Of a stretch of DNA of 64,000 nt, positions 40,901 through 64,000 are shown piece after piece (the first letter of the stretch is position 1; each line of letters starts with the position of its first letter). Made by a program: the position numbers and the translations under genes. The notes under the pieces are model-generated. The model had not been told where the DNA came from and searched no databases. It saw only the letters and a list, made by a program, of their open reading frames with translations. Source of the stretch: Antedon mediterranea (taxonomy: Eukaryota; Echinodermata; Crinoidea; Comatulida; Antedonidae); the NCBI RefSeq assembly GCF_964355755.1, contig NC_092671.1:38333304-38397303 (forward strand), written 5' to 3'.

Positions 40901-43900
40901 GTTTGTGAATTGTTGATTCTTATTAATAATTTAATAACTATTTTATTTATTTAAAAATACAATCAATGATATTGATTTGAACATTTTACGAATATATTAA
41001 AACAAATACATCGATAACTTTTATATTGTATTGTATTTAAATGGTTTACAAATAAAATAAAATAAAAATTGTTTTCTTTGTTCTACCTCTCCTGGTGGTC
41101 CTGGTGGTCCTGGACGTCCTGGGTTACCTGGTGGTCCTGGGAGACCATTCAAACCATCAATACCATTGTCTCCCTATTAAAAAAAAAAACAATACAATGT
41201 CATTTTGATTAAAAGTGTAAAATTGCAATAAAATATTGTTTGCCCATTAAAATTTGTTTTAAAATCAACATTGCAACTCTAGATCTATTGAAGGTGGAAA
41301 CCTGTAATAAAAATGAAATATTAAGATTAAAATATTAAGATTAAAATATTGTAATTAAAAAGCCATAAGGTGTATTTGTACTTACTCTTGATCCTGGGTT
41401 ACCAGAGGAACCTCTTGGTCCTGTAGATCCACGTCCTCCCTAGAGTCAAAGAAGCTTTCAAGTTAGCACAAAAACCCCACAAACATAAACCCTAGCAATT
41501 TGTTACCATTACATTCGTTGCAAAAACCTAAGTGTTGTTTCTTATTAGATTTGTAAAGTTTAATATTATATTAAAAATATTGTATAAACTTATAATATTT
41601 ACATACAGTATTTTAAATTTTGCTGAATTAATTTGCTTAATGGGAATTTTCTTGAGGACTCTAAAGTATTATTATCTTACTTTAATACCTTTAATGTATT
41701 ATACACTTTTAGTTGAATTAGGCATAAATAAATAATAAATATCTAACATATATTAAAAACGCTTAGCAAAGAAATGGCATGACTATGTGGAATATCTTAT
41801 TCTAGCTAATCATTAGGACTACTATCGCAAGATGCTTTTACACACACGCGGCTAATCCATCGCTTGAGATTGGTCAAACCACTTTGCGTTGCGTTACGTA
41901 CTGGCGTTGCGTTCTAGTGGGAACCAAGCTTAAGCAAGAGTTGCTGCAACATTCAATCAGGTCAGTCAGTGTTGACTTTAATACCACAACTATGTACAAT
42001 TGTACTTTAAAACATGATTGTTTTAATCATATTACAATTGTAAATAGTTGTAATATACATGACACATGGATGGAAATTAAAGAAATATTTGAATACAATT
42101 TAGAAATCTGTATAACTAGATAATATAATTATAAATTTAAATTTTTAATTAATTTAAACCTGATGTGAATTAATACATTATGCACTACTTATTTTTATCT
42201 TGGACTTTTTCTCACAGATTAAGTAACAATTATTTGATCGTTCTAATGGATGTTTTGGGACAATTTAATTGTTTTTTGTTAATCAAAATTCCATCCATGT
42301 GACAATAATACCAATTGTTACCAACTTACTGGAGAACCTGGAGCTCCTGGTGGTCCAGCAGGACCCATTGGTAGCTACATTAAGTAGGAATAAAAATAAG
42401 AAAATACAAATTAAATAACAATGTATTAAACTCACCGCTGGTCCTGGTGGTCCAGGTGGACCTTGGACTGGTTGAAACTGTTAGAAAAGATGCAAAAACA
42501 TAATATGTTTGTCCCAACACAGATCAAAATGATAAAACCCCATCAGATAAATGTTTGACAATTGGAAAAATTGAAGAATTTTATAATTAGAATTGCACTG
42601 TAGTTTATTTAAAAGTGTACAGTATGAAATTTTCCAAAACATATTTTATTACTTATTAGTTAAAATTCCAGTTCAAGTTTGAATTTTATTATCAGAATTG
42701 CATTGTGGTTTATTTTAAAATTATTTGAAAATTTTCCAAAACATATTTTATTAATGATTAGTTAAAATTCCAGTTCAAGTTTTAATATTTCAATTTATAT
42801 TCAAAATAATTTTTTTTTGGATTCTAAAATTTTGATCTGTCATGGAATTTCCTACTTTTTGACACTCAAGGTAAATGCACTATTTTAATCTAATTTTATA
42901 TTGTTGATTAGTTAGAAATTATAATTAATATTTAAAATTAACGCCTTGAGTGTCAAGCTACAGAGTTCTTGAGTGGATGCGGAATGTGCAGATGAATGTA
43001 ACTCGTTGACTGACCCCTTCATCTTTATCAATAAATAATAAACAGTGTCTCCTCTTAAGTATTTTCCAATATTGCATTTTTGTACATTTTAAATGATTTT
43101 TTGGTTTGAATATAGCCAATTATTGCATATTATTGGATATTAAAAATTGGAATACTGTCAGGAGTAGACACTTTACAATCAAACTTATCATTAATTTACT
43201 ATTTAAACAACTAGAAGCCTACATGGTCCTATGATACACTATATAACCTTACCACTAGAGTAACTATTTAGGCAATGCTATTGTATAATAGATTATAGTA
43301 CAATTTGAAATGGTTTATTAAAGTAGTACAGCATTTTAAATTTCGTCCACCATTTTAAAATGTCTAGCACTCCTTTCACTAAATGAGCAAAACTTTGGCG
43401 ACACTCCTAAGTTTGATATGAAATTGGTATAGTGCCACCCCCCCCCCCCCCACTCCCTCAAAGATGACTTCAATAGCATATCCTTTACAATGATTTCCTA
43501 TAGATTACTCTATTTAAATACTGTATTCAAATTCTAACATTGATAATCGTTCCTTCAAACTGGTTATTTCCTAAATTGATAAACTAATGTTATATTTATT
43601 TCATACTAAGATTTCATTAATCAAATATTTTTAATAATTTATTTAAAACTAATTTCTGCAAATAATTATTATTTAAACAAAATCCAAAAGTGATAACAAT
43701 TTTAAAAGCAGGGTTTGAATTTTGGTGATTTTTTCTCATTTTTAAAGATTTTCTCAACTTCACCATAAATTTCCAGTATGTCACTGACATATTTGTTTAT
43801 ATTTGTTTGAAAATTTATATAATAAAAAATGAATTTGTTGTATTAATTCTAAACTTTTCAATAGAAAAATTATTTGCAGATTACATATCTAGCCCTATAC

Positions 43901-46900
43901 ACATTTATAATTAATTATTTTAAGTTTGATTTCTCCTAGAAATATACCATTAAAAATAAATAGTCTCTGAATTAAAATATTATTAAAACTAAACTAATCC
44001 TAAACTAGGAATGGTTTTTGCTAATTACCAAATTAAATGCTTTTTCACTTAATAAAATTCAAATAATATCGCATTGGAGCTTTTTGTGAATTATAAAGCA
44101 GCAGGCTTATAATAATGCTGGGCAACGAAAAATATATAAATCAGCATTTAATTTGTTTACATTTAATATCCTACTTAAATTACTCATTTAAAAAAACCAA
44201 CAGTGTTGATGTTTATGATATAAATTTCATTAAATTTTGCTTTTTCAAAAATTTGATATTTAACAATAATGTGGAATGATTTTGTAACAATTTATTTGTG
44301 GTTATATGGTATTGGATTTAATAGTCGATATAAATTTAATAATGAAATATTTACAATTTGAGTGTAATACGGTACAGAGTACTGTATAAATCTAAAAAAA
44401 AATATATTAAATTTGAGTGGAATATTTGTTTTAAAAAAACATCAACAGCTGCCGATTTCAAAACGGATAAAAACGAAGGGGTTCTTAATCGCAGAAGTTG
44501 CACTCACTGCACTTCCAAGTTCTGGAACTTCGCCGGGCTCGCCCTTTTGGCCCTTAGGGCCGGTTGGGCCAGTTTCTCCACCAGCGTCTCCTCGACGCGT
44601 ACTACCCTGGAATATTAATATAATATAAGAAATTAGTACAAAGAATAAATCAACTTACTCCCCCTGGGAACATATTGTTGAGATCAGCAGGCTCTCCCTT
44701 CTGGCCCTTTATGCCAGGTGGTCCATCGGGCAATACCTGATAATATATAAAAGCATTGAAATACATAGAATACAACATGTGTAATTATGATAATGATGAT
44801 AATGATGTTGATAATATGAGAATGATAATGACAGTTTAAAAATATGATCATGATGTTGACAATAATATGAGGAGAATTACAATCACAGTTTAAAAATATG
44901 ATAATGATGTTGATAATATGAGAATGATAATCACAGTTTAAAAATTTGATCATGATGTTGACAATAATATGAGGAGAATTACAATCACAGTTTAAAAATA
45001 TGATAATGATGTTGATAATATGAGAATGATAATCACAGTTTAAAAATATGATCATGATTTTGACAATAATATGAGGAGAATTACAATCACAGTTTAAAAA
45101 CATGACAATCATGTTGATAATTATATGAGGAGAATTATAAATTACAGTTTAAAAACATTCATTATAATGAATAATATGTGATATATACATTTGTAAACAA
45201 TTGTATATTAACATTACATTATGTATTTTAGATACTCAAATTAATCATTTATTTTTCTTTTAATATTGTTCAATTCAATATGAATAATAACCTGGGAAGG
45301 GCAAGTATTCCTTGCTCTTCCCAGGTTTTAATTAGCATGTTACCCTTCAAACTTACCTCTATAAATAGTTGAATAAACAGGAATCGGCAGCAATGGAGAG
45401 AGAGAGAGAGGAAAAATAAAATAATGGTTAAAATCAACATTTTCTATTGAAAATGCCACTGTATCCCTTGAGAGCAAAATGATACCTCATCGGACTACTC
45501 AGTATAGTCAGATGAAGTACCATTTGAAGTGTGTGATGACAATACCTGTTAATACATCTTAAAACATAGAGGAAAAAAAAAACATCTCTCAAAAAAGTCA
45601 GAATGTTTTACCTATTGAAAATAACTTACACTGCAAAAAAGAAGAGTCTCACAGCAAACTGCAATCGAAGATTGCAATTTGCTGCTAAACCATAGTCAGA
45701 ATATACATAAACATTTTGGTCACATAATAAATTTAACTAAAAGATCTTAATACATTGTTTTCTTCTACTCGACTTAAACTTACGACTAGCAGGAGGTGCG
45801 CATTCTACTTTTGCACAACTAATGAGAGGTCCGCCCTCTAGTGTCATCTCCTCATTAGCTGGCGACAATTCAGCACAAAGATAATTATCGCCATTGCAAT
45901 TTAAATCGGCTTGCTCAATAGAAGCCTCAAGGCCTCTGAAAACTGTTCTTCTTCCTGCTGACAGTAAACGTCCACTCTGGTCAGGAGAGAGCACTTGTGA
46001 GTCTTTGATCTCTCTGACTCCAGACCCATCTCTGTATCCTGCAACGAATGTAGTTACTTTCCATTGATTATCCAACAAAGCATCTGCTCCGGTGCTGTCC
46101 AATCCTAAATCAAAGTCAAAGTCCACCTTGGTCTTGTTAAGACCAATTATGGGTGAGCTTTCCAATGTAATATCAGTATCGTATACTTTGACGCCTGCAA
46201 GATACAATAAAACAATTCTGTTAGCTGTTGTTGTTAATATGTTGTATTTTACAATGATAAAATGGTACAATTTAGTACCAATAGTTGGCTAGTTTTTCAG
46301 CTATCAATCACTCTTTGCTGTATTTTCACTTCAATGTACTAAGATTGAAGATGTTAATAAACACTTCAATGTAATCAATGTTAATCTAAAATTGGCTGGG
46401 AAGGACTAGTGACACCTCAAAAACATATATTTAAAATCAATCACATCAATCAGCTGAAGATTCCTCAGACAAGAATGCATAAGCAGTAACATTTTCAATA
46501 ATGTTTATTTTGTCCCCAAACAAATAATAATCGATGAATGGAATGTCAAATATCAACATTGATGGGTAAACTGGAGAAATTATACAAACATAACTATAAA
46601 CCGGGTCAACCGGCTCAGCTACTGGGTCAACTGGCTAAGCTATAGTGACTGGTCTCCCCAATTTCACGGTTTTTTGTTATGTGTATACTGAAATAGACCG
46701 AATAAATAATTAAATGAAATGAAAGAACATTTACTCACCAGCACAATTAACCTGGTTAGCAGCGACTAATCGGTTTTTGGCAGTCAAAGCATAATCTGGA
46801 TCGGCATTCGGTCCTTTCTTCAATTCTGTGCAAATGTATTTCATCTTTTTGCAGCTAATGCCTTCCATACTGTAATCAACGTATACATCGCCAAAGTCAA

Positions 46901-49900
46901 TCTTGCGATTGCTCGTTCCTTTAGGAGCGATTCCTTTGCGTGATTCATATGATGTGAAGACGTTGGTTTTGGGATTGAGTTTGGGTTCCTGACAATCTTT
47001 GGTTTCACTACCAAAGACATCCAACTGCCAGAGGTCATCTCCTTCCAAACTATTGGATTCATCAGCAGGTAAAGCTGCAACATTCAGGTATAGACTGTTT
47101 CTTGGTTTGTTCTCAACAACATTTAAACCTGATGGAAAAACTGGGCGTGTCTGCAACTCTTCCATTACAATACCTGAAAAACACCAAACAATGTAAACAT
47201 CAATAGGAGTTTCAATTCTATGATTTTAATCACTTTGAAAGGTATATTACATATTTATTCATAAGTTTGGAGACTATGCTACTAGTCAATTTAAGTCTTT
47301 TTCTCTCTTGTGCAACAACTTTTATTAATTTATATTAACAATCGTATACATGATATTTCGTATATCAACACAACAACACACAATACTACTGAAAATAATA
47401 ATATTATTGAAAATTCAGTTGGTAAAATTTAAACATCTAAAACAAGTCAATTTAATTCTTTGTTGTTCAATTGTAAAATGTTGTTAAATTCAAAAACTAA
47501 ACTCACCATCTGGGCACTCCTGCAACTTGCACTTCTTGATGGTTTTCTCGTCTGGCTTTCCTGGTCTCTTCACTTTGAAGTTAAAGTCTGTGCTTGGGGT
47601 TGGTGCCTTTGACAACTCCAGGCAGGCATACTTGTACTCACCGCATCCCAATTCTCCGAAGTTATACTCAACTGGAATGTTTGGAAAATCAACACCTCGC
47701 CCTGGAGTAAGATCTTGTCCTGAATTGTAGGTGTTCAAAATCTGAGAAACTGGGTTTAATTCATCACCAGTTCCGTCTTCATTTTTGCTGCCAAAGAGTT
47801 TCACTTGCCAGAGATCATCACCAGATACTGCAGCTGAAGTGACTGGTGCAACAGCGTTTGCGTCAATTCTCACTTCTGATGGTCTGTTTCGGTTAATCTC
47901 ACCATCCATTGTCCAATCAAAGTCCTCAACAACAACGCCTAGTAATAATAATTACCAAAATTAGTTTCAAAATGGCATTAGGATAGCAACAAAACAACAA
48001 TTCAAATAAATAAGTTTACATTTTAACCACAGAGTATTTGAACAGCATTATTGAACAATTATATTCGTTTACTGTAAAAGAATAGAAAGTTTATTGCAAG
48101 AACGCAAGCATTTTTAACAAGATTATGTAACTATGTAAACTAAAATATATATTACAAAACTAATTCATATTATAGATAGAAAAATGTAATGTACCTTCAC
48201 AATCTTTGTTGGGGTAACAACTTGTAAGGACTCTGTCATCGGGCTGAGTTGTCATGGCGAAGGCTGGTTGTGGTCGTGGGCCTTGATCAACTCTTGAACA
48301 GATGTATGGAACATCATCACAGGTTTTTCCACGCATGTCCAAGTTGCTGTCTACTGGGCCTAATGTCATTGGCTCTCCAGCAGTCAATGGTCTATCAGCT
48401 GAAGACTGTGGCATGTACACAGATTCTGGGCTAACCATTGGACCTTCACCGGATGGGCTCTGACTACCGAATGTTGTCATTGTCCATGATCGTCGACTGT
48501 CGGAACTAGCACCTTCTGGGCTTGACTCAACTGTTGTTTGGACACTGATAGGGTTGTTTTGTCTGCCTTCAACAAGACTTCCACTGACTGGTTCTGTGGC
48601 TGTTCCGGTAAGGACAACCTCTGTAAAAACAAGCAACATTTATTTTTGATTAAAAAGCAGTTTATTTTTTAGAATGGAGATGACCGGGGTATTAATATGT
48701 ACAGAAGTTTCACAACATAAGAAGCTTTATAAATCCAAGATATCATTTTTTTATTATTTGTTATGTGGTTCAGTTTCTTGTAATGGAATAGTTGTCTTCC
48801 ACATTTTTGGGATTTACAGAAACCTTTGTTCCGTTGAAATCATCTAAAATTGATTTAAACATTTGTTTTAGACTGCTGATTAAAATGTTCAATGAATAAT
48901 ATATCGGTCACTAATTTCATGTTTTACAGTACCTACCATTACAATCGGCTTCTTTGCAAGAAATCAGTCTGTCCTTGTCAGGTAGAGCAGTAAATTTGAA
49001 GTCTTTTGGTTGTGGATATTGTCCCTTTGTGAATTCCAAACACATATATCTATATGGAGAATTACTGCAACCAATACCTCCGATATCAAAATCTGTCTCT
49101 GTTCGTGGGAATTTCAATGGGTCACCAGCAGTAAGAGGGAATGCCTGTTCATCTTCACTCAATGTCTGTCGCACTTCTCCGAATCGATCTCCTGTTCCTT
49201 GAGCGTTACGGCTTCCGAAAACTCCAAGATTCCACATTCCATTTCCAGATATGCTGCGAGTGTCTGGCACGGTACTGATATCGGTTTTCAGCGTAATTGG
49301 GCTTGGTCGGCCAGGAACAACAGAGCTTGGTTCATAATCGACTTCCCAGTCCATGTCATCTACAACAACACCACGACAACGGTCCTCAATATTTACGCAA
49401 TCTGTCAACTCATCTTCATCACCTCTAAACTTGAAGTCTGGTTTTGGTTTTGGTTTGGTACCTTTGTCTAGTCTAAAGCAGAGGTACTTGGCTTTGTTAC
49501 AGTTGGCCTTCAGTAGGTTTGGATTCACTTCTACGTCTCCAAAGCTCATTCTTGAATCAGCTGGGTCAAGAGTTGTTCCTGACTTTGGTGGATCCAATAC
49601 TTGTTCCTTGAAACCATATTGCCGTCCTGTACCATCACTATTTGGTGATACCCATTGTTGCATTTTCCACAGATTTTTGCCTTCAACACCAAGAGTGTCA
49701 TAGGCTGGCGTAGCCTCAAGGTTTACTTTGATGGGGTTTGTTTTCGAGCCTTCTGTCACGTAAACATCGTCTTGATTTGGTGAAAGAACGGCATCAAGTC
49801 TACGCAAAGCCACAGCTATAAAAAAAACAATACAATATATTCATTAATACATGTTTTTAAGAGCTTATGCCTCTGGCAAATATTAAGAAATTTTCAAATT

Positions 49901-52900
49901 TTTTAAATGTCATCATAAAAAATTTATAATACAATTGTCTAACATTTTTTTATCAATAAATTTATCAAAATAATACTCTTGATAAAAAAGTGATAACGCA
50001 TAATTCATCCATAAACCATAATAGACATTTTTATTCAATTATTTAAAAAAATTAAATGTAAATACAAATTAGTAAACAAATGTGAAACTTACAGTCTGAG
50101 CATGCTGGTTTCTCGCACTTGACCAGTGTGTTTTCTGCGGTGGCTTTCTCACCAATGGCAGCAAAGGCAAAGTCTGGTTGAGGGGCATCAGCCTTGGCAT
50201 ATTCCATGCACACATACTGCCCCTTTGAACAAACAGATCCCATATCAAAATCTCCTCCAACAACACCCAAAGGAAGGAATTGGCCTCTACCATTCATTGT
50301 CATGCCTTGTTGTTCTGGTGTAAGAAGTTGCTCTTTGTAACCAGATCGATCACCAGATCCATCCATGTTGTCACTTCCAAAGATTCCAACCTTCCATAAA
50401 CCAGAGCCAGTTGCACCAGCACTTTCATAGTCAGATTCTACTCTGAAGTTGTTAGTAGATACAGGAGTTTCTCGTCCAATGATGTAATCACTACCTGCAA
50501 CAGGTGGATATATGAGGTCTTTTGCAATAACACCTTCACACTGCAGTTTGGTACATTGTCTCAAAGACTGTTCATCTGGAACACCTTCAAGAACGTATAC
50601 TGGATCGGAATTCTCATTTCTTGAAATCTCAACACAAGCATATTGCAGGTCAGCACACGCCTTGCCAGTTGTATCAAATGAAACTGGAATTTTCCCGTAG
50701 GCAAGATCGGCTGGCATCAAAAGATTTTGGTCTTTTTGCCCTGAGTTCAAGGAGTTGGGAATTACTGAATTCTGTACAGTGCCAGATTCATCCGGAGACA
50801 AGTACGTTTTGAGGTTCCACAGACCACTGCCAACCACGCCAGCACTAGTGGAGTCTGTTAGTCCAGTGACATCAAGAGTTACCTTCTGGTTCTTTTTGTC
50901 CGACTTTATCTTTCCATCAACAGCAAGCTGAGTTTCTCTAATTTTTACAGCTATCAAAAATACAAAATAAAAATCCATTTAATTACAATTCATAATATCT
51001 CCGACTGAAAAAAGCGAGAGATGGGAATATTATTTTTAATAAGTTCTTAATAAGTTAAGTTACTAATATTTATTTAATTTTCACCAGGCTGCATTGTTTT
51101 ATTTGTATTGTTTCTAGTTTTAGATAACATACCTGCATTACAAGGCACTTCTTTACAAGACCTTAGGATTGGTTCATCTTGACCAAGTACAACCAAACTG
51201 TAATCCGGGACAGATCCATCTCCTTTGGTGAACTCAGCACATATATATTCTGTGCCATCACAGCCAACTGATCCTATTTCAAATTGTGTGTCAACATTAG
51301 GGTATTTCAAGTCAGGAAAACGCCTTTCGTTGGTGGTCATAGCTAGACCTTGTCCAGCGTCGTTGAGGGTCTGATAGGTGTAACGCTCTTTTTTACCAGA
51401 ACCATCTTCGTTGCGACTACTGTACATTCCCAATCGCCAGAGATTCTGTCCGCCATTTAAGATCTGGCTTTCACGGTCAAATGTTACATTGGCACTTAAC
51501 ACACCAGGAGATTTTTGTCCGAAGACATAACTCTCTGGTTCGTAGTCCCATTCAAGACCCATCATGTAAACCTCTGAAACAAGAAAATTAAATTAAAGTC
51601 ACACTAAATCAAAATAGATGGTAACAGGCTTTCTGAAATAAAAAACTGCCAGCTACTACTAAATCTAACCGCTAATTCTAACTGTGTTATGTATGATGTA
51701 CACGTGCATGTTTATGATGTGTCTACCCATAAAGCATTGAGGGAAGAAGCTTGTAATGGACTATAAGAAGGTTAATTCAATACAAACCTTTGCATGGCAT
51801 TACATCACAATCAATTAACTGAGAATCGGCTGTAAAAGAATAATCAACGCTGGCCTTTTCGTTTTTATAAAGCTCAACGCAGATATAACCAGTATCTTTA
51901 CATGCCAGGCTTGTCATGTCTACATCAGTGTTGATTGTACCAAAATCAATAGTTTCACCGGCTACAAGTGGTGTTTCAGACTGTGCTTTGGAAAGTTCGT
52001 CGTTTTTAAGTTTATATCTAGGACTGTCTGGTGTTGGAAATTCGGTTGGACTTAAAAATCTAGACATGCGCCACAGGTTCTCTCCTTCTAGGCCAACTTC
52101 GCTGTCTGGAAAAGCTTCAGTGGTCATTCTGACATCATTACTTGGTAAGTAGTCTTCGATACTACCACCAGTCACTGTCATCTCTAAACGATCAATTTTT
52201 ATTTCTGGAAGAACAAAAAAGATATGATTTGTAAAATTTATTGGTGTAAAAAAAAGTTTAATTATAACTACCGTATGTGGCAACTACTATTATGATTATT
52301 AGCATTAATTCAAGCACAATTGCAATATAATTTTTTAACAATTCTGTAATACTTCATTATCTAATTTTATAAGAAATTTACAGTAAATAATAAATGACAA
52401 AATAAATGTATAATAAAAAGGAAGATTACACACAAAAATAAAAAAAAAAAGTACAGTACAAATTTAAATAAATAAATAAATAAAAAATAAATATTATATT
52501 AACTACTTGCTAGGCAATGGAAAAAGTTAATACAAATAATAATTGAGATTTTGTTGGAGTAAATACTCTCGTTGTTATTTATATTATTATTTATTTAACA
52601 AAAATAAACATACCTGAATTGCACTTCATTTTTTTACAAGTTCTGTAGAGATCTGGGTTGCCTTTTTGTAAAGACTGGAATGGATACTCTGGCTCGGGAT
52701 TGTCACCACGCTGGATCTGAACACATGCAAATGGAAACCTGTCACATCCAACTTCGGCCATTTTGAAATCAAATTTAGCTTTTCTGAAAGAAAGATCAGC
52801 ACCTGCTCCATCGTATCTTTGCTTTGCTTGATCCTCAGAAAGTACCTGATCAACTTGGCCAAAACGAAGACCTGTGCCTTGTTTGTTCTGACTACCAAAG

Positions 52901-55900
52901 ACGGTAACTTTCCACAAGCCTTCGCCTTCTGTTAAGGTACTGTCTGTTGTTGTTGTTGATGTCATGTCAAGACTGACGCCAGTAGCACGTCCTAATACCA
53001 TAGTATCAACTGCTTCCAGGTCAAAGTCTAAACTATCTACAATCACAGCTGAAAATGGAATATGAAAAATATGTTATAGAAATTCCAAAAATGCTGCATT
53101 CTAAATCAATCTGCCATAACTAAGAACATTAAAAGTCACAATTTTCTCCCAATCTACAAAATAATTCTTAAATTCTTTTTACTTTAAAATTAAAAAGGTT
53201 TGCCAAAAGTGTGGTCTTTAAAAGTTTACAAGCTTTCTGAGGTCAAGGGTTAACTTTTGCTTATGAATAATACAGAAGATGGAAATGTTCATGGGAAAAA
53301 CAAAACAACAACAAAATTATTAAATAAAACATAAAAATTAGTACCTTGACAATCAACTGGAAAGCATTTATAGACAACAGTTTCATCTGGATCAATGTTT
53401 TCATTGGTCGGATGAATCGTAAATTCATGTTGTGATTCACGTCCTTTGGTAAGATGTAAACAGACATATTGTGCTTGTTCGCAAGTTAAATCTGTCATAT
53501 CAAGTGTGTAGGGAACAATACCAATTCTTGAGGTTGTAAATGGTACAAGTCTTGTAGCACTCTGCGGACTATTTAAAGATTGTCGTGTTTCACTGTATCG
53601 TGTACCTAGGCCGTCGTTTTGATCACTGGCGTACACCGCAAGATTCCATGAATTTACACCATTAACACCAATTGGACCTCTTGATATAATATCCACATCA
53701 AATGCCATTTCATTTTCCGGTAATCTTGGTGCTGCTTTTAAGTCACCAGGAGCTTCGGCTTCCATAGCAAGATTGACAGCTAAAAAAGACCAATGAATTC
53801 TATTTATAAGCCATTATAAACACAGTTTTAATACTTAATCATAGCAATAGCCACTGTTATTAATGTTTCAAAATTTTGATTTCAAATGTTATATGTTAAT
53901 TTAATAAACATTATTATTTAAATACAAATACATGTGCGAGTAGCTGGCAACTAACTTACTGTTATAACAACCACTTTTCTTGCAGTTAAGCTTCAAGGCA
54001 GATTCTTCAAATTTGTAATCTGGTTCTGCATCCTCATTCTTGTCTATTTTGGCACATAAAAATTTGTACTCCCCACAACCCACACCAGATAGATCAAAGC
54101 GGAAGTCTGGTACAGTGAATGAGAGTTCTGTTTTATCATTTTCTCTTTTCAGTGGCTTGCCCTGCTGATCATTATTTAATGCCTGTGGCTTATAACTATA
54201 TTTGGTGCCAGTTCCTTGCATGTTTTTGGCTCCAAATATACTAAGGGTCCATAGATTTTCGCCATCCACCTCTACTGAACTATCCGACATGGTCGCTGTG
54301 TATTTCAATGTTGTGTTATCATCCTCACCAATAACCAACGCTCCGGTACCAATGGACCAATCAATACTAGTTACTATTACAGCTGTTTTTCGATCCCCTG
54401 TGTAAGAACATCACAGCAAAAGAAACGTAAATTATTGCACTAGTAAAAAGCACCAAATAAATTGTCTCATAACATACAAAAAATCCGAATGGCATTAAGA
54501 AAAGTTGAGAATTTAGCAACTTTAGACATAGAATTTGAAAGATTTCATTTCAAAAAATTATAGGAAAGAACCAAAAACCCAAAATCATCTTATCATAAGG
54601 TGAAAGTTTTTAAAAACCCATTTTTTATTTTAATTAACCCAATGAAAGAATTATTTTGGAAGGTAAGGCAAGACAATAACAATTGTGCTTTTTTATACTA
54701 AATGGTGCAATAAAAATGTGAAGACTGAAGCATACACTTTACATTATATTAGGTGTAAGTGTACAAATTAGAAATGATAAAAGCATGCACTAGGCAAAGT
54801 AATATGGCAAGACTGGAATTAGGGCGGGTGAAGAGGGGTACAGATGAGTTTAGTTCACCTGAAGAAAGGTTGAGCATTCATATAACCCTAACTTGGCCAG
54901 GTGTTTTGTAAAACATATAAACCATATATAAATTTGGTATACGTATTTATATGCTTTTTACCTCCATATAACAATATCATAATGATGGAGATTTTATATA
55001 TAATATTCTTTACATAATAATACAATGCTTGTAGAAATAAAGAACAATTGCGTTCGGTTTCTACACACCTTGGCACTCTATTTCTACACACTGAGTAAGG
55101 CTTCCAGCATTGTCAATGCCTCGTATGGTGAAATCTATATTCGGATTTTCGCCCATCTCCAGCCTGGCACACATATATTTCACCTCAGCACAGGAGAGTT
55201 CAGACATATCAAAATTAAAGATGATGTCAGTGAAGTCCAAGATCCCATCTGGATTCAGAACCTCATCCTGTTGAGATGGCATGAGAACCGTCTCTTGTGT
55301 GCCATACTGCAAGCCAGAGCCATCAGGTTCGGTGCTTCCGAACAGAGATATCTGCCATAACCCCATTCCACTTACAGCAGCGGAAATGTCTGCTGGTAAG
55401 CCACGGAAGCGCAACTGCAAGCTGTTGTCTTGCTCATTGCTTAAAATTTGACCCAAAACTTCAACTTCAATATCTTTTATAACAACCTCTGAAAAAAATA
55501 AAGAAACAAAAATAACAATAAGTAAATTTTATTTAATATTTTTAATTTCTATATACAAAACTATTGTTTATAATCATTTGATTGGTACACAGGGAGTGGC
55601 TACAGTATTTTAATTAAATAGACCAATAGTTGAAACACATTTAATGATACAAATACAGAAAATAATCATTACATTGTTTATAAATTAATTCTAAATAATC
55701 CAATTATATACTATTTAAAGAGAATAACTTTAAGAAATATTTAATAAAGACAATAACTTCAAGAAATGTATGAAAAAAAAGAAAATCAAACATACCATTT
55801 TTACACTCTGACTTTTCACAAGTAATCAGACTGTCTCCACCATTTTCAACCAACAAGATGAAGTCAGGTTCAGGGTTCCTGCCCTTTTTAATTTCGACAC

Positions 55901-58900
55901 ATATAAATTTAAAATCATCACAACCAATCGATCCCGACTCAAAATCAAACTCAACACCCGCAAAGTTCATGGTTTCGCCAGTGCCAGCATAGGATTTACT
56001 AGATTGGTTTTGGTTGAGAATTTGAGACACATCTCCAAATCTAGCTCCAGTTCCTTCAATGTTTTCAGAACCGAAAATGGACATTTGCCAATTGTGCTGA
56101 CCTCTGATTGGATCACTGGTGTCGGCAGTAGCAACATCTGCTATTAAAGTGTGTTCACTTGGCTGACCAATCACAGCCTTGCTCTTATCCAAGTCCCAAT
56201 CCAAGCCTGTCAGGGTAATAGCTACAAAAGAACAGTCAAAATGATTAATATAATTTAATACAAATAATGTAAAATATTAGATAATATACTTGTAATTATT
56301 ATTTATTGTAATATTAGTTATTAAAAGTGATTGTGAAGTAAAGAATAATTGAAAGTATTTTTACTTACTTCTGCAGGCTATTGGGGTGCAAATGGTACCA
56401 CGAAGAGGATCATTTTCAAAGACAGCATTTTTGTGATGGAGGTTAAATTGAAATTCTGGATCATCTCCTTTCAGTAGCTGAAGACACATGTACTGTATGA
56501 CATCGCAGCTAAGGTCACGCATATCAAAGTTAAAGGTTACGTTTCCCATATTGGTTAAAGTAACACCAGTTTCAAATGAGATTGGCTCCAGTCTGGTATT
56601 ACTTTGTAGTGTGTTAAGAACCTGCTGTTCATTATAGCGGACACCATTGCCATCAGCATTGTCACTACCAAAGGCTACCACTTTCCATGAGTTGTTACCA
56701 TTGATGCCAATTAGACCTTGATTTGCAAGACTGGTATCAAATGCAAGAGGATTGGTGCTACTGCCAGGATCAAGAAGCATTTCACTGGTTGCTTTACTTT
56801 TAAAATGCACATTAATATCTGAAAAATAGAAAAATATTCATATAACTAACAAGTTTCATAATAACATTTTTCTAAAATATGCAAAATTGATATTTAAAAC
56901 AAGTTTATCGGCTTAGAATTTTTTAGTTTTTTACCAACATATTTTACAATTCAATTTACAGGAATATCTTACCATGATAACATCCAGCTTTTTCACAATC
57001 CATTTCAAGTATCCCTGTCTGGAATTCAAAATCAACACTTGAAGTCGGATTTTTGGAAATGACAGTACACAGATGTGTCCACTTTCCACAACCAGTTGCT
57101 GACAGATCAAATTTGAGATCACTAACAAATTTGAGAGATCCTCCAGCACTCAGTGATTTGCTACTGTCATTTTGTGCTAGCATTTGTTCAATGTAGTTAA
57201 AACGTTCTCCAGTTCCTTTTATGTTTGTTGAACCAAAAACACCAACTTTCCACATGTTTTCACCAGAAATTGCCGAGCTTGTCGGAGACATAACTGCTGT
57301 ATATGTTGCTGTAATGTTGTCTTTTTCTCCAATCATTAAAGCTTTAGTGCTCACTTTCCATTCGATGTTCAGAAGCACTATTTCACGTTCTAGATAAAAA
57401 AGAACAAATTATTTAAAACAGTTATAGCATGAATGATATTTATATTTATGATAATTTTGTTTTATTGCATTGTGCAAAATGAATTAGTTAAATTGTTTAA
57501 ACATTTTTAAAGATCTTACTTGTCTGTCGGCAGGTGATAAGAGATGATGCATCAGGAGAAGCTGTAACTTGAAAATTAGGAATGGCGTCTTCACTTTCAG
57601 AAAGTTCAAGGCATAAATATTTAACTTGGTCAGCTTGCAAATTAGTTGCGTCAAAGTCAACCTGAATGTCTCCAAAATTGAGTTCTTTATCCATTGGTAA
57701 TAAAGGAATGTTTTGTTTGTTTTCATTTAAGATTTGCATAATTGCTCCAGCACGTTTACCATCTCCATTTTCATTTGAACTGGCCCACATCATTAGCTGC
57801 CAAAGGCGAGTACCAGACACTCCTCGGCCCAATACTTGGTGGTTAGCTTTTACATCATTTAAAGTTATGCTGGACACAGATCCAACATCAATATCTGTCA
57901 CACTTGTATCATCAACTCTTAAATTTGATAGTACAATTTCTAAAAATAAACAAACAAAATTATGTTAATGTTTAACTTCTTGCAAACAAAACACCTGAAA
58001 ATGTAAAACATTATTCAACATGACGATGTCCTAATGAATAGATAATGATGTTGGTAAATAATGTTGATAATAATGATGTTGGGTAAATAATGTTGATAAT
58101 AATGATGTTGGTAAATAATGTTGATAATAATGATGTTGGTAAATAATGTTGATAATAATGATGTTGATAATAAATTATGTTGATAATGATGTTGATGATA
58201 TAATGTTGGATGATAATAATGTTGGTAAATAATTTTGATAATAATGATGTTGACAATGATGTAATGATATGATGTTGAGGGATAATGAAGTTGATAATGA
58301 TGTCAATAATAATGATGTCAATAATAATGATGTCAATAATAATGATGTTGATAATAATGATGTTGATAATAATGATGTTGATAATGATGTTGATAATGAT
58401 GTTGAGGGATAATGAAGTTGATAATGATGTCAATAATAATGATGTCAATAATAATGATGTTGATAATAATGATGTTGATAATAATGATGTTGTTGATAAT
58501 GATGTTGATAATAATGATGTTGACAATGATGTTGATAATGATGTTGATAATGATGTTGATAATGATGATGTTGATAATAATGATGTTGATAATAATAATG
58601 ATGTTAATGATATGATGTTGAAGATAATGATGTTGATAATAATGATGTTGTTAAGCAATTATATTTCTTACCATTTCTGCATTGGAGTTTCTTACAAGCT
58701 ACAAGTCTTCTAGATTCAGTGTTGATTTCTAACTCAAAATCAGGCTCAGGGGAATCTCCCTTGAAGAACTCCACACACAAGAAATTGCTGTTAGAGCACG
58801 ACACTTCTGTGTAGTCATATTGCAGCTTTTGAGTTCCAAAGTCCAGCATTGTAACATTTGCCAACAAATCCATGCTACTCTGTTCGCTGCTGAGAATCTG

Positions 58901-61900
58901 TTCCTTCAGCAGATATTTGTCACCAATACCTTTGTCATTGGTGCTGCCATATATGGCCGCCCTCCACAGATTACTCCCATTTACTAAGTAGTCCGTTAGA
59001 GGTCTGAATTCAATGTTTAATCTAAAATCTACATCATCATTTTGTCCATAATGTAGTATATTTTCATCTAATTGCCATGATATTCCGGTGCCCAGTGCTA
59101 TTTCTCCTAAATAACAATAAAATTTAATAATAATTTCAATGGTATAAATATGAAAAAAAAAGGAAGTAATTTTATATTGAAAAAGAATTTGAGCAGAAGT
59201 TTATCAAAAGTAATTCTGTCTATAATGAAATTGAATTGTCGAATTATTTGGTTGTACCTTCATCTTATATACGTCGGTTGAAACAAAGGGTCACCATAAA
59301 TTACACATGAATGTATGAACCAAACAATTCAATCAATTATTTTCATGATGGACAACTGCCATTTTGATAAAATCTTTGAATTTAAAGGTCATTAACTTAT
59401 TCATACTTTTAATATGGTAATTAAAAGTATCAGTTTTGTAATTTTATTTAGTTCGCCAAACTGAATTCAAGGAATGTAAGTATTAAGACAATTACCACAT
59501 AATTAGTACGTTGTCTTAAATGTAAAATTTTAGAAACTACTGTATTATTTATTGTGAAAGCAACTAACTCAAAGGACTTTATAGAATTATGATCATGAAG
59601 ATTGTTTTCAGCAAACAGGGTTAAATTTGTAAAATAAATTAAATTTTATTTTGAGTTTTACTGAAATACTGTGTTTAATTTTTAACCTTTTGTTTGTTTT
59701 TATTCAAAATTGATTTAAATAATTAAATAATAAATTTATTTTACTTGGTTTTTGTATATCTCTTACTTTATAGAAAACTTGAGTGCAAAGTCAAATGTTT
59801 TCAAAGAACAAAAGAGAAACACTAATAAAAACAAATGACATGACTTATATTGCAATGTTATTTTCATCAAAAGGTTAAAATAAAAGTGCAGTCTTTCAAT
59901 AAAACATACTATACTCTTTATCGAGTTGTAGGGTAAAAAATAATCTATTGGAAAATTATTTAACATCTTAAGAAATCTTCATGAACGTAATAGTTGGTGC
60001 ATAATGTGCATAGAATCACATTTCCATTATAATGCTTAAATATGTTAACTTTTGCATTCTTCTAAAACTATCGTTACCAGTTCCTCGTTCTCTTATTTTC
60101 AGAAGTAGATTTTGAGTGATCAGATGGTATCTTTGTATCGTTTACAATAATTAGAGAGTTTCAATACTCAATTGTTATTAATTTAAACACATCTCTCAAC
60201 CCTCTCTCACTCAAATTCAACAATAACCTCACAACAATTGTGCAACAAATAGTTTTAAATCACATGAGAAAAGATTATTTAAATAAAAACAACAAATGTT
60301 AAAATAAAAAGCAATAAATCCTAGACATCAATTTTACATTTTCTACGTAAACATTACTATTTAACTTGCCAACAAGTGAAATATGTTGTACCAAGAGTAA
60401 TTGCTTGTTATTTTACATTTGTTTATTTCCCATTTTGTTTTATAACGTTGTTGATGTTTGCTGAAAAATGAAAGGGGATAACAGACAACACAGGTCAGAA
60501 TGACAGACATCATCTATTACCAAAGCACTTGTTGCTAATAGATGGATATTACATGCAAATTCTTAATTCTACAACGAGAGAAAGGAAAATAGTTTGAGAA
60601 CACATATTTACCTTTCACATGTTTCTCTCTCCGCATCTTCAACATGCAAAGGAAATAGCTTGCTTTGCATTCTTCATATCACTTTAAGATGAAGATGTAC
60701 TGAGGAAAAACCAGCAGAAACCGAAATAAGAAATTTTGTAAGTTCATGCTTAACTTCATGCATATAAATATTGTTTACCATGCATAAAAATAATTTTCAA
60801 AAATGTTTGATTTTCACAATCTTTTGTGATGATTTTCAGTTACCATCGTGCAAATTTTAAAATTTAGGAATAACTTTTGAAACATCATGCAAAAGAGAGA
60901 AGGGAACACCAACAACATAATAATCTTCAACATAGTACAACTTTTGATTTACTTCAAAGTTAAGAATTTGTTAAAATTGTACCATATTTATAACTATCTA
61001 ATACTGGTCTGTTTTTAGAAATAACAACAAGACCCAAATTATAGTTACCATGAACCATAATTATAGTTACATTACCATTTCTGAATCTATATATTTAAGT
61101 AGAGATTATTATTCAGGTTTTATTTTAAAATAAATAATTATTATCACGAACTTTTGAAGGAATTTTATTTTAAAACTTTTAGTTAATTGTCCATGCAATT
61201 ATAAATACATGCTTTATAATCAATCGATTTTAAACTCACCTATGAAAAAAAAAGATGATATTCAAGAAAAAACCGCGGAAAAATAAATACAATGTTTGTT
61301 CGCACTGTAGAAACCAGCCCAATGATATTGAATTAATATTTCTACTAAAACTTTAAAATTAATAATTTAACAATGTAATTTAGTTGGATTAACATTCAGT
61401 TAAAATTGTTATTAAATATTAAACATTTAAAATATTAATACCGATTTCAGAACACACAAAAAAAAGAACAAAAAAATGACAATCTTTTAGGTTTTTTTAT
61501 TTTAAGCATATCCAGTTGTTGAGATATTATATAATTGCGGAAAAGGTAAAAGCTGTTAATAAATAAAAGCTGGAACAATGAAGGATGTGAATTTGTTTGA
61601 AGATGGGAGGGGTGTGGCGGGGCGGGGCGGGAGGACATACAGTGGCATTTGAAAGGAGGGTTTGATTTGGATGAATAAGATGATAATTATTTTAATACAA
61701 CCATTGCTGATACACACAATACTGGGCCATAGTTTGTTAGTGTAATTAGATGTATTCATTTTATTAGGATAATTTTAATAGGAGTATTTTAGTTTTGTAA
61801 TAAATCTATGAAATGTATAAAATTAACAAATGTACGTTGCAACTAACCTTCGCAAAAATTAATCTTAACACATGTTGTTAATGATTTTTCTTCTTGTGCA

Positions 61901-62613
61901 AGCAAGTTGAATTCGGCACTTGCGCTTTCGCTTCTCCCAAACTCAACACACACGTACGGAATGTCATTGCAAGAACTTTCCCTCAGATCAAATTCAAAGA
62001 GAACTTGTTGAAATCTTAAACTATCACCTTTGCTAAGGGTCTGGGATTGTAGAGATTCATCGAGTACTTGTTTTGTGTACGACTCTTTCTTTTCTTTTCC
62101 AGTGGATAAAGGGCTCCCCCAAACACCGACTTGCCAAAGTTCCGTGCCCGATATGGATGAGCTTTCTTCAGCATTAAAATCAATTGTTACGTCAATGGGT
62201 AGCAGATTGAGGGCGCCATTTAGCAAAGTGGTTGGCCGAACTGTTAGCTTGATATCGGTAACTGTGACAACTGTGAATTGTAGGAAATTGGCTTAAAAGA
62301 TTATTTAAATTTTTGCTTGGAAACTAAGATTAAAACTTGTGTAGGTTTTAATACAAAATAGCATTTCAAGTTTTAACTTGGGTCAATTTGGGTTAAATGG
62401 ATAATGGGAAAATTTGCTGAAACTTACCGCATGCACCACAGCACGCATCTATCCCAATAATAGGATCTCTGCAGTCAGTGATGGGACAAGTTCTTGTGGA
62501 ACAGAAAGTGGTGGCGTTGTCGCACGAACATATTGTGCATTCATCCAAATCAAACCGAGTCCCATGCAAATGAATTTTACCACCATACAAACACGGCAGT
62601 CTATCCTTGTCAG
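27837..62613 (-). CDS. SURF-module fibrillar procollagen alpha chain (sea urchin 2-alpha/5-alpha type); 5' end not found
   Basis: A 34.8-kb gene read from 62613 down to 27837. Order: VWC module, 20 SURF modules (45784-62270), minor helix (41087-44736), N-telopeptide exons (40513-40779), major helix (30214-39243), C-telopeptide (29691-29922) and C-propeptide (27837-28999). Helix exons are multiples of 9 nt, mostly 54 or 108, the standard fibrillar pattern. All exons identified join in frame except at the SURF/minor-helix junction, where a small exon is missing. Together they encode roughly 4,450 residues. Fibrillar procollagens trimerise in the ER through the C-propeptide, are secreted and trimmed, and form extracellular fibrils. 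SURF modules are known from echinoderm fibrillar collagens and fibrosurfin. The signal-peptide exon was not found and may lie past the window edge. Confidence 0.93.
28716..28799 (+). repeat. Palindromic MITE, truncated copy in a collagen intron
   Basis: It begins AGCTCTGTCTACACTATCAA and runs through GGTAGTGATATGACATCATC to a truncated right end, about 30 bp from the 3' edge of exon 28828-28999. Confidence 0.55.
29691..29922 (-). other. Collagen C-telopeptide exons
   Basis: Exons 29857-29922 ([20 protein letters not shown] then YY) and 29691-29783 ([20 protein letters not shown], then [11 protein letters not shown]). They link the end of the major helix to the C-propeptide. The segment is Tyr-rich and has Lys in APKGP and STKG, possible lysyl-oxidase cross-link sites. 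The tolloid-type cleavage site is probably near the YADQ/NDEN start of the next exon; this is inference. Confidence 0.8.
31713..31757. repeat. Intronic perfect hairpin
   Basis: Arms AATCAGGGAGATGTAAAAT and ATTTTACATCTCCCTGATT flank a very short A-rich loop in a collagen helix intron. Confidence 0.7.
32330..32522. repeat. 58-bp tandem repeat in a collagen intron
   Basis: CTCTTTGAGGGTGAGATGGC recurs near 32391, 32449 and 32507, with about 3.5 units in all. The open frame on the - strand here (repeated [12 protein letters not shown]) is a by-product. Confidence 0.75.
33673..34096. repeat. 25-bp minisatellite in a collagen intron
   Basis: About 17 near-identical units of AAAGCATAAACTACAACATT plus ATACT, with a few C/T variants (CACTATACT). 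It fills much of the intron between helix exons 34762-34815 and 33327-33434. Confidence 0.9.
34385..34748. repeat. Tandem repeat of about 60 bp next to a splice donor
   Basis: Six units with CATACGCAAACTGCAACGGG and GTACGATACATTTAAACTA, each starting ACTTGTTAACAAC or ACTTGTTAGCAAC. Two alternating variants end in GGCCATCC or GCCCTCAC. The array reaches the GTAAGT donor of exon 34762-34815. Confidence 0.85.
39244..40512 (-). other. Collagen intron between N-telopeptide and major helix
   Basis: No exon was seen. It holds a GATCA pentanucleotide run (about 39835-39855) and a dispersed direct duplication of about 80 bp (about 39967-40050 and 40151-40235) sharing GTCTATTTGACATGCGTT. The open frame at 40411-40656 is antisense to exon 40513-40602. 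Confidence 0.5.
40513..40779 (-). other. Extended N-telopeptide, two related exons
   Basis: Exon 40678-40779 encodes [20 protein letters not shown] and then [14 protein letters not shown]; exon 40513-40602 encodes [20 protein letters not shown] and then [10 protein letters not shown]. Both have a VVA(S/A)A start, a YKGP centre and a GYA-type end, so one looks like a duplicate of the other. Together they make 64 residues, far longer than the N-telopeptides of vertebrate collagen I. Lys in YKGP is the likely cross-link residue (inference). Confidence 0.8.
41835..41932. repeat. Half foldback element related to 19339-19475
   Basis: It ends GTTCTAGTGGGAACCAAGCT T, matching the arm of the PSMA2 intron copy, and shares a GCGGC...GATTGGTC internal stretch. 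The opposite arm is not clear. Confidence 0.45.
42478..44507 (-). other. Long collagen intron
   Basis: AT-rich with no recognised exon. About 42591-42785 holds two copies of a segment of about 100 bp (AATTTTCCAAAACATATTTT, then ATTAGTTAAAATTCCAGTTC). A poly-C run is at 43437-43452. Confidence 0.5.
44775..45152. repeat. Tandem repeat of about 116 bp (two related 58-bp halves)
   Basis: GATAATATGAGAATGATAAT and GACAATAATATGAGGAGAAT halves alternate, each followed by CACAGTTTAAAAATATGAT, for just over three units. The open frame on the - strand ([12 protein letters not shown] repeats) is a by-product. Confidence 0.8.
45291..45331. repeat. Intronic hairpin
   Basis: Arms AACCTGGGAAGGGCAAG and CTTGCTCTTCCCAGGTT with one mismatch around a 5-nt loop, in the intron between SURF 20 and the minor helix. 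Confidence 0.65.
45784..48620 (-). other. SURF modules 17-20
   Basis: Four one-module exons: 48195-48620 (17), 47507-47938 (18), 46739-47173 (19), 45784-46194 (20). Each has the SURF layout: a hydrophobic start, (L/S)W in the middle, an FGS-type strand, a C-x6-C pair with Y or F before the second Cys, and a closing C-x4-5-C. Module 18 begins GVVVEDFDW. Module 19 has lost its third Cys (LVAANQVNC) and gained one in the middle (ETKDCQEP). Module 20 ends [11 protein letters not shown] and a phase-1 donor. Confidence 0.9.
48937..49815 (-). other. SURF modules 15 and 16 in one exon
   Basis: 879 nt without an intron between the modules. Module 15 has [10 protein letters not shown] and a C3-C4 pair CVNIEDRC; module 16 starts [15 protein letters not shown] and ends LISCKEADC. 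The frame is continuous and both edges are phase 1. Confidence 0.92.
50093..50950 (-). other. SURF modules 13 and 14 in one exon
   Basis: 858 nt. Module 13 ([45 protein letters not shown]) runs directly into module 14 ([51 protein letters not shown]). Confidence 0.92.
51133..52204 (-). other. SURF modules 11 and 12
   Basis: Exons 51788-52204 (module 11, [32 protein letters not shown]) and 51133-51573 (module 12, [53 protein letters not shown]). Both are phase-1 symmetrical, so either could be skipped without breaking the frame. Confidence 0.92.
52614..55488 (-). other. SURF modules 7-10
   Basis: Exons 55069-55488 (7), 53960-54397 (8), 53345-53779 (9) and 52614-53048 (10). Each carries four Cys in the usual places (for example [13 protein letters not shown] and CVEIEC in module 7). 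Pairwise resemblance by eye is 7 to 3, 8 to 4, 9 to 5 and 10 to 6; for instance modules 5 and 9 share [16 protein letters not shown], and modules 4 and 8 share MIGEKDN/VIGEDDN. Confidence 0.92.
55796..57939 (-). other. SURF modules 3-6
   Basis: Exons 57520-57939 (3), 56973-57389 (4), 56369-56818 (5) and 55796-56221 (6). Module 3 keeps only two of the four cysteines: the first is Ala in [11 protein letters not shown] and the fourth is absent after LITCRQT. Modules 4-6 have all four. Exon edges are all phase 1. Confidence 0.92.
58025..58655. repeat. GATGTTGATAATAAT microsatellite/minisatellite
   Basis: A 630-bp array of GATGTTGATAATAAT and close variants fills most of the intron between SURF exons 2 and 3, ending 17 bp from the exon 2 donor. 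Higher-order blocks (GTTGAGGGATAATGAAG recurs near 58273 and 58401) are visible. Long open frames of Asn/Asp/Val or Ile/Ser are by-products. Confidence 0.9.
58672..59106 (-). other. SURF module 2
   Basis: 435-nt exon: [14 protein letters not shown] start, [46 protein letters not shown]. Phase 1 at both edges. Confidence 0.92.
59107..61847 (-). other. Long collagen intron between SURF 1 and 2
   Basis: 2.7 kb, AT-rich. No exon, RNA gene or clear repeat was recognised. Confidence 0.5.
61848..62270 (-). other. SURF module 1
   Basis: Exon with [11 protein letters not shown] start, [27 protein letters not shown] and CVKINFC. Two acceptors in the same phase are possible (62270 or about 62291); the shorter is preferred because VVTVTDI aligns with the starts of other modules. 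It follows the VWC exon directly. Confidence 0.87.
62428..62613 (-). other. VWC (von Willebrand factor C) module
   Basis: 186-nt exon, phase 1 at both ends. Residues: [20 protein letters not shown], then [20 protein letters not shown] and a CRD...CCGACG end; ten cysteines in the VWC pattern CxxCxC ... CPxxxC ... CCxxC. VWC is the usual N-terminal module of fibrillar collagen N-propeptides and binds growth factors in some chains. Confidence 0.92.
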
Positions 62614-64000
62614 CTAAAGAGAAGAGAGATTTGCATACCAACTAGTCCCTTGGATAAGCACCCACATATGTTCATTTAGTCTTTTTCAGAGAACTATAAT
62701 TTTATTATAAAATTGAATTTAGTACCATTGGGCAATGGTTTATAAATCGCGAATGTTTACGAGTGTATGTGTTCGTTCAAAAAGCGTGATGCTCACATAA
62801 GGGACACAACATGAACAAAAACAATAGAGAGGTGCAGAATTCAGAAACACTTTATTACAAACTGTGTGTGCAAGTGATAAATAGTCCTGCAAGTAAAATC
62901 TAAAAGTGTATGCACAAATAAAACAATACTTTTCTCATGTGACCAAACAGATACATATTTTTTCTGACCACTCAAAACTTCTGCAGTTTGGGAAATTTAT
63001 GAAAGCTTTTCTTTTAAAAAAAAAATCTCACTTTCAGAAAACTGATTTGATTTTACCTGTCACCGATGGCAGTATGCAGTCAAACACTCGACTGGAATGT
63101 TTGTATAAAACACCCTGACTTGAGAGAGAGGAGGAAATATGGAGATGAGATCTTAAAATCTAGACATAACAACGACATGCAAGAAACAGATAAAAGATCA
63201 ACGGGTTGCACAAGTAAGAAAGGTGGAAAAGATGGACAATGACAAAAGTGCTTTTCAGTAAACGAAGTAACATGACAAATAAATTAAGATGCACAAGTAC
63301 AAAAAATGAAATGATTAAAAGGTAATGTCATCATCCAATTGGCAATCATTAATTTAGTCACATGTCTGAAATTCAAAGGGTGCATTGGACATAACATTAC
63401 ATTATTTAGGTTTTATGGAATACGGTAGTATTTTTTGGTAAATTTGATTATCAAACAAAAAGAGTTACGTAAAGGAAAATAATACTATCAATTAATAAGA
63501 AACATTAATTTTTAATGTAAGTTATGACAATGTTGAAATCTCATGCACAAGTAAATGATGTATAATGGGCAGGGGAGTCATTTTGGAGTATTCAAATTTC
63601 ATGGGCCATTTCTATAATTTCACATTTCGAATGAAAGGAAGAATATATGAAATGAAATGATGAAATAAAAGCAATGGCTAACAGGAAAGCCATGAAAAGA
63701 AAGAGTGATGATGATTACCAGACAGTGGTCAAGGGATACAAAGTGGCAACAAGAACAACAATGTATATTTCACATAAAAAAATACAATTTATATCACAAA
63801 GACATAATATATGCTAGCAAGCAAGCAAAAAATTGTTGAGATTTTCAATTGCAATTGTTTTCCAAATTGTAGTATTTGTCATGAAAAGCCTTCTATTTTT
63901 GTTTCTGATTACATGCATCTGTTTTTTTTAAATAAAATATTTTAGCCATGAGAAAATGGAAGCATTTATTTTACTAATAAATGAAAAAAATAAATAAATA
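62614..64000. other. Upstream flank; signal-peptide exon not identified
   Basis: A possible 58-nt exon on the - strand (63057-63114) has a pyrimidine-rich acceptor (CCTCCTCTCTCTCAAGTCAG), a GTAAAA donor and fits the VWC phase, encoding GVLYKHSSRVFDCILPSVT. It lacks a start codon and is not signal-like, so it remains a weak candidate. Nothing else coding was recognised. Confidence 0.35.

Follow-up and report, generated by a model that had tools for sequence, protein, structure and literature searches.

Two alternating classes of SURF-like modules in a fibrillar procollagen gene of the crinoid Antedon mediterranea, with signs of growth by module pairs

The window analysed here is a stretch of 64,000 nucleotides from the crinoid Antedon mediterranea (NCBI RefSeq assembly GCF_964355755.1, contig NC_092671.1, positions 38,333,304 to 38,397,303), whose minus strand carries a fibrillar procollagen gene with an N-propeptide made of VWC, a long row of SURF-like modules and Gly-X-Y stretches, followed by COLFI. 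The VWC exon (62428–62620, far end approximate) lies directly upstream of the module row; Pfam recognises it in the frame 62396–62641 at E 2.5e-10, and its donor at 62428 stands just upstream of module 1. Twenty modules of 136–150 amino acids each then run from 62270 down to 45784 in 18 exons, exactly where the first-pass annotation had placed them. Each of the 18 exons is bounded by AG/GT sites and has phase 1-1, so that exon skipping would preserve the frame, and the joined module reading amounts to 2866 amino acids with no stop codon. Beyond the modules, direct reading and a pattern search locate Gly-X-Y exons at 44445–44760 (the first stretches past the array, in the minor triple helix region, with approximate ends), 41024–41173, 30321–30602 and elsewhere, and COLFI closes the gene at 27843–28960 in three matched stretches (28823–28960, 28185–28589 and 27843–27977), with Pfam E values of 1.6e-41 and 5.5e-11 plus a third match. 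Long ATGTTGATAATG-like simple-repeat arrays occupy 58014–58658, within the intron that separates modules 2 and 3, and 44780–45180, downstream of module 20. On the plus strand, at 22441–24619, there are open frames that by eye resemble a LINE-type endonuclease and reverse transcriptase.

Sixteen of the modules have an exon of their own, and the remaining four share two exons, a detail absent from the first-pass annotation. The odd-numbered single modules are 1 (61848–62270), 3 (57520–57939), 5 (56369–56818), 7 (55069–55488), 9 (53345–53779), 11 (51788–52204), 17 (48195–48620) and 19 (46739–47173), and the even-numbered ones are 2 (58672–59106), 4 (56973–57389), 6 (55796–56221), 8 (53960–54397), 10 (52614–53048), 12 (51133–51573), 18 (47507–47938) and 20 (45784–46194). 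Modules 13 (odd) and 14 (even) are joined at 50093–50950, and 15 (odd) and 16 (even) at 48937–49815.

The same order of VWC, a row of four-cysteine modules, a minor triple helix and a fibrillar collagen is described for sea-urchin SURF procollagens in the excerpts available of two papers, in which the 1-alpha long form (VWC and 16 SURF modules, deduced from the gene), 2-alpha and 5-alpha (11 SURF modules) are named (PMC2852846; PMC10817530); unlike the 1-alpha long form and 5-alpha, the crinoid gene has 20 modules. We therefore call the modules SURF-like, a name given by gene architecture and not by comparison with deposited SURF sequences. Modules 1 and 15+16, when searched against Pfam-A, returned no family at E up to 1, and a PDB search with a profile of all 20 modules returned only two chains, at E 1.2 and 1.7, which is chance level. 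The excerpts at hand of PMC2852846, PMC10817530, PMC11959729, PMC10381214, PMC7594579 and PMC2527298 do not mention an alternation of SURF modules, which may stand in the primary SURF papers.

Two classes of module, odd-numbered and even-numbered, alternate along the array, and this conclusion, already drawn in the first-pass annotation, is strongly supported. Using pairwise global scores, the parity difference lies 6.7 SD above permuted module order (none of 20000 permutations reached it), and a repeat with 5000 permutations gave 6.8 SD. The best match of a module has the same parity in 18 of 20 cases (p 0.0007), the exceptions being modules 3 and 17. Best matches had been expected at distances of 2 or 4, and this holds for 11 modules, but seven others find theirs at further even lags and the two exceptions at odd ones. 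Mean normalised scores are 0.209 between even modules, 0.157 between odd modules and 0.140 across the classes. In a maximum-likelihood tree of the 20 modules, proposed earlier as a check on whether the classes intermix, only one odd/even change is needed, compared to a mean of 7.0 for shuffled labels (none of 500 as low), with a support of only 75/59 for the branch that separates odd from even. Pairwise identities range from 18 to 41%, close to the limit for building trees, and just two of the 17 inner branches of this tree are starred. Both points would suit the view that low similarity, composition or alignment has produced an artificial alternation. This explanation is nevertheless highly improbable, since shuffling the residues inside modules abolishes the parity signal (the largest of 60 shuffles gave 0.007, against 0.043), and leave-one-out profiles built from even modules 2–18 and odd modules 1–19 place all 20 modules on the expected side, with weak margins for module 18 (6.0 bits), module 20 (3.6 bits) and module 3 (3.1 bits). 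Leave-one-out assignment by mean pairwise score is correct for 19 of 20, as high as only one in 20000 shuffled labelings.

The classes are also distinguished by residues at fixed places. Even-class marks comprise a first-strand W, an N and a G at fixed positions and, behind the third Cys, K or E, spread over alignment columns 13, 65, 118, 163 and 164, and the odd class has its own mark in an N at another place (8/10, compared to 0/10 in even modules). Residue contrasts of 5 or more number 18, against a mean of 4.7 after shuffling, with at least one of 1000 shuffles equalling 18 (maximum 21). The motifs read by eye at the outset fared unevenly. The G[TSI]G motif is kept in all ten even modules and varies in odd ones, where only 7 and 15 have it; the early [DES]W or DF is absent from all ten odd modules and from module 20, and is found in eight of the nine even modules from 2 to 18, but not in 14. 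The [VI]xG[RQE] loop, taken for an even feature, is present in six of these nine, but also in three of ten odd modules and thus is not exclusive to a class. Furthermore, NSW is restricted to modules 5 and 9 and PEP[DE][FY] to 2, 6 and 10, just as had been read, and FG[DT][IV] is confirmed in 3, 11, 15 and 19 but not in module 7, which has FTDI in its stead; module 6 carries FGDV at a different place. A sharper mark, although its pattern was chosen post hoc, is C[KE][KEL]xxC at the module end, which separates nine of nine even modules (2–18) from none of ten odd ones, is absent from module 20, and likewise speaks against an artefact.

For comparison, SURF loci were collected from the same genome (354 Mb in 18 contigs, among them those called C1, C2, C4 and C10 below), and as the searches scored the best candidates only, the list is a lower bound. 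The alternation statistic, class-profile scoring and cysteine table cover 74 modules; one partial module at C2:14.33 Mb and one split module at C2:26.89 Mb were left out when modules were assembled, and where a module is split, its pieces were united at profile boundaries rather than at verified splice sites. A first tree has 71 rows (the modules labelled T3, B06 and B15 were dropped), and a later tree and the AU tests use 46 of the 74. Other arrays comprise at least about 31 modules at C2:26.109–26.145 Mb, seven at C1:13.263 Mb, five at C2:5.82 Mb, six at C10:13.08 Mb and a few elsewhere. The 31-module array shows no alternation (parity z 0.44, p 0.31), compared to z 6.8 in the collagen array. 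Neither the C1 array (n=7; z −0.53, p 0.77) nor the one at C2:5.82 Mb (n=5; z −0.42, p 0.70) alternates significantly, both having little power, and the C10 array does alternate (p 0.019), as tandem copies must.

The long array (C2:26108993–26144650; loci L010, L011, L006, L007 and L012) is a row of about 31 SURF modules, many of them split over two exons. Fibrosurfin is known as an interfibrillar sea-urchin protein that shares SURF modules, according to the available part of PMC10817530, and it differs from the collagen array gene, which has COLFI; the non-alternating array at C2:26.11–26.14 Mb may be its nearer counterpart, and is a candidate for that role. At C1:13260352–13277930 (L004 and L005), one strand carries in succession EGF-like, CUB-like and again EGF-like domains, a set of seven SURF modules and finally many cadherin-like repeats, a cadherin-like gene with SURF modules whose domain names were given by eye and not by Pfam. 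With Pfam-A blank for the three modules tested, a SURF profile would reveal the family in further genes of this kind. At C2:5821549–5827850 (L008 and L009), four even-type modules are arranged as two pairs. This locus also has open stretches rich in Gly, two stretches that by eye are VWC-like, and a single module that most resembles module 1 of the collagen array.

Scored with the collagen-array profiles, modules of other loci are mostly odd-like, namely 29 of 31 in the long array, 7/7 on C1, the single ones on C4 and at C2:26.89 Mb, and 3/3 at C2:14.3 Mb, with several margins below 1 bit, and only C2:5.82 Mb is mostly even-like (four of five, with one odd-like). Hence the generic SURF type would seem to be the odd class, with the even class (2–18) a derived form. 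Even modules 2–18, the four from C2:5.82 Mb and two even copies from C10 form one group in the 71-row tree (SH-aLRT 84) and again in the 46-row tree (94/84), there with module B16 as a doubtful intruder, and a tree constrained to keep B16 out is as likely (AU p 0.516). Odd modules form no single group in the larger trees, but such a group is not rejected (AU p 0.377), which leaves the generic character of odd modules short of proof. Module 1 is sister to the module that follows the VWC-like stretches at C2:5.83 Mb (99/80, 46-row tree). Module 20, without most even marks, falls outside the other collagen modules and among generic ones in the larger trees, with placement among the even modules not rejected (AU p 0.305), and is here left unassigned to either class.

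Growth of the array may be traced from the similarity between its modules. Lag 4 gives the highest mean similarity of all lags from 1 to 12 (none of 20000 permutations; p 0.005 within parity) and the best match of eight modules out of 20, which favours an array of ten odd-even dimers forming five tetramers, close to the five four-module blocks first suggested. The fused exons 13+14 and 15+16, both odd-even, agree with it, and so does the grouping of 7, 11, 15 and 19 at SH-aLRT 84 in the 71-row tree, and their mean similarity, which ranks 13 of 210 odd foursomes; this is a hint that there is more four-module structure than a single event. However, the strongest pairs at lag 4 are only 4/8 (41% identity), 5/9 (38%), 12/16 (38%) and 6/10 (37%), and in 1000 bootstrap trees 4/8 are sisters in 95%, 5/9 in 97%, 6/10 in 80% and 12/16 in 37%, whereas 3/7, 7/11, 13/17, 14/18, 15/19 and 16/20 are sisters in 0% (rounded). 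The split of modules by position modulo 4 is unremarkable (rank 54 of 252 for odd modules, 29 of 126 for even modules 2–18), its labels change on the tree no less often than shuffled ones (201 and 436 of 500 shuffles as low), and its difference from the modulo 2 split has p 0.16, or 0.18 given parity. With a module 20 that is not clearly even in addition, the five-block array fails on each of these counts, and we regard the five tetramers as decidedly unlikely.

What does stand of tetramer duplication is one event, seen in the pairs 4/8, 5/9 and 6/10, which occur jointly in 72% of bootstrap trees and which, together with 7/13, are the reciprocal best pairs of the array. A fourth pair of this tetramer is missing, as 7 and 11 are sisters in 0% (rounded) of the bootstrap trees. 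A chimaeric module 7, half from 3 and half from 11, was considered as the reason, and comparison of sub-segments gave it no support. The duplication is old, since dS is 2.4 for 5/9 and beyond computing for 4/8. In an intron dot plot of the window, suggested earlier for a period of 2 or 4, module introns did not resemble each other, and the only signals came from a short inverted repeat and two AT-rich arrays of simple repeats.

A direct case of an even-odd unit, judged by its exon order, is found on another contig. At C10:13079830–13084380 (L002), exons like 8 and 9 occur three times in the order 8,9,8,9,8,9, separated by intervening sequence and provided with splice-like sites, and their DNA is about 74–80% identical to window exons 8 and 9. 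Alignment with the window runs through the 8–9 intron in two of the three units, and the intron alone as a query found no match there. Compared to the window, five of the six copies (T3 being left out) have a dS of 0.64–0.75 and a dN/dS of 0.25–0.30, and among themselves, again without T3, a dS of 0.21–0.23 and a dN/dS of 0.55–0.92. The middle unit is decaying, with an in-frame stop in copy T3 and two cysteines lost in copy T4. Trees place the copies closest to 8 and 9 and leave 4 and 5 outside, hence this copying came later than the 4/8 and 5/9 duplication. The simplest reading would be that one even-odd pair was copied out to C10 and multiplied later under relaxed constraint. The last copy runs into a stop codon at the expected donor site.

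These units bear out the suggestion that the array grew by dimers, as far as pair copying goes, but the unit copied is better read as even-odd. Besides C10, a Mantel comparison of the even and odd similarity matrices points weakly in this direction, with r 0.35 and p 0.034 for even-odd pairing and r 0.13 and p 0.26 for odd-even; it is one of five pairings run, and a mismatched one, odd k with even k+3, does equally well (r 0.37, p 0.043). A junction count, described below and made post hoc, is the third observation for the even-odd phase. Against it stand the two fused exons, both odd-even, which we read as two putative intron losses. A duplicated odd-even unit was considered for them and rejected, as 14 and 16 are sisters in 1% of bootstraps and 13 and 15 are 25% identical.

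Junctions between modules are very short and differ by class. Counted from the final Cys of one module to the first strand of its successor, they measure three residues after eight of nine even modules and two after seven of ten odd modules, the others being of 3 (1/10), 6 and 7 residues, and the one of 6 follows a module without Cys4; the contrast gives a Fisher p of 0.001, tested after the pattern had been noticed. In the C1 array, six junctions read by eye are all of two residues. Such short alternating junctions would fit a different explanation, in which single modules multiplied and selection, by requiring unlike neighbours for packing, brought about the alternation. This would also suit the closer likeness of even modules to each other than of odd ones, and the fact that the larger trees do not separate odd modules as a group from generic SURF ones. 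On the contrary, an even-odd pair multiplied as DNA on C10, the in-register pairs 4/8, 5/9 and 6/10 indicate copying of several modules at once, and even marks at several separate columns fit descent, which leaves selection upon single modules an unlikely account, if less so than the five tetramers.

All four cysteines are present in 18 of 20 modules. Module 3 (57520–57939) lacks Cys1 and Cys4, and module 19 lacks Cys3. In module 3 and in copy T4 on C10 (L002:7360–7790), Cys1 and Cys4 are missing jointly with Cys2 and Cys3 kept, which suggests from sequence that disulfides 1-4 and 2-3 are formed across the last two strands. AlphaFold2, given the 20-row alignment, confidently predicts module 16 as a seven-stranded beta-sandwich (mean pLDDT 95.7, pTM 0.89), which may be likened to the beta-sandwich domains of immunoglobulin and fibronectin-III type. 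The predicted seven-stranded sandwich would be in common, but Foldseek found no match to the model at E 0.001 or below and the best PDB structure comparison, among its best 50 matches, has Z 7.6 over 118 residues with an rmsd of 3.5, tied with unrelated entries, hence no fold family is assigned. The PDB matches listed are beta domains of small size, and many are sandwich parts of larger proteins. A relation to ApaG, whose domains top the Foldseek results, was dropped, as ApaG is absent from the 50 matches of the second comparison. A model of the 15-16 pair has pTM 0.68, too low to fix the geometry of the interface, with only two alignment rows covering the first half.

Taken together, we consider it fairly probable that the array consists of a first module, nine even-odd dimers and a last module (1 + 9x2 + 1). 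An even-type module would first have arisen from the generic type, and would then have been copied jointly with the odd module downstream of it, the two exons forming an even-odd pair, by way of the symmetric phase-1 introns. One later event would have doubled about two pairs, 4-5-6-[7] giving 8-9-10-[11]. Module 1 would be the ancestral first module behind VWC and module 20, probably, the ancestral last one. The array may fold into consecutive beta-sandwiches joined by very short links, and as these links alternate mostly between 3 and 2 residues, the repeat of such a rod would be two modules.

Echinoderm collagen fibrils carry SURF modules, for which a part in variable tensility has been suggested, as stated in the available part of PMC10817530. 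The literature examined, as far as its excerpts go, holds no description of the SURF repeat unit or fold. Judging from gene anatomy, the array might be a stiff rod with a two-module repeat, kept on or released at the fibril surface, whose repeated binding face would offer fibril-fibril contacts. A broader proposal joins the array of 1 + nine even-odd dimers + 1 to an even subtype that supplies a second kind of junction, and with it the two-module mechanical repeat of a rod in mutable connective tissue, and to a cassette that left the gene and multiplied on C10; this wider proposal is put forward tentatively, as possible rather than probable. For structural work, the two-module unit offers a definite construct (modules 8-9 or 15-16), for comparative work it offers a testable register, and C10 is a datable case of the multiplication of a two-exon cassette. 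Elsewhere in the genome, at C1:1148756–1158225, four COLFI-like matches lie in a row about 3.1 kb apart, all covering one identical portion of the domain, which sets them apart from an ordinary collagen C-propeptide.
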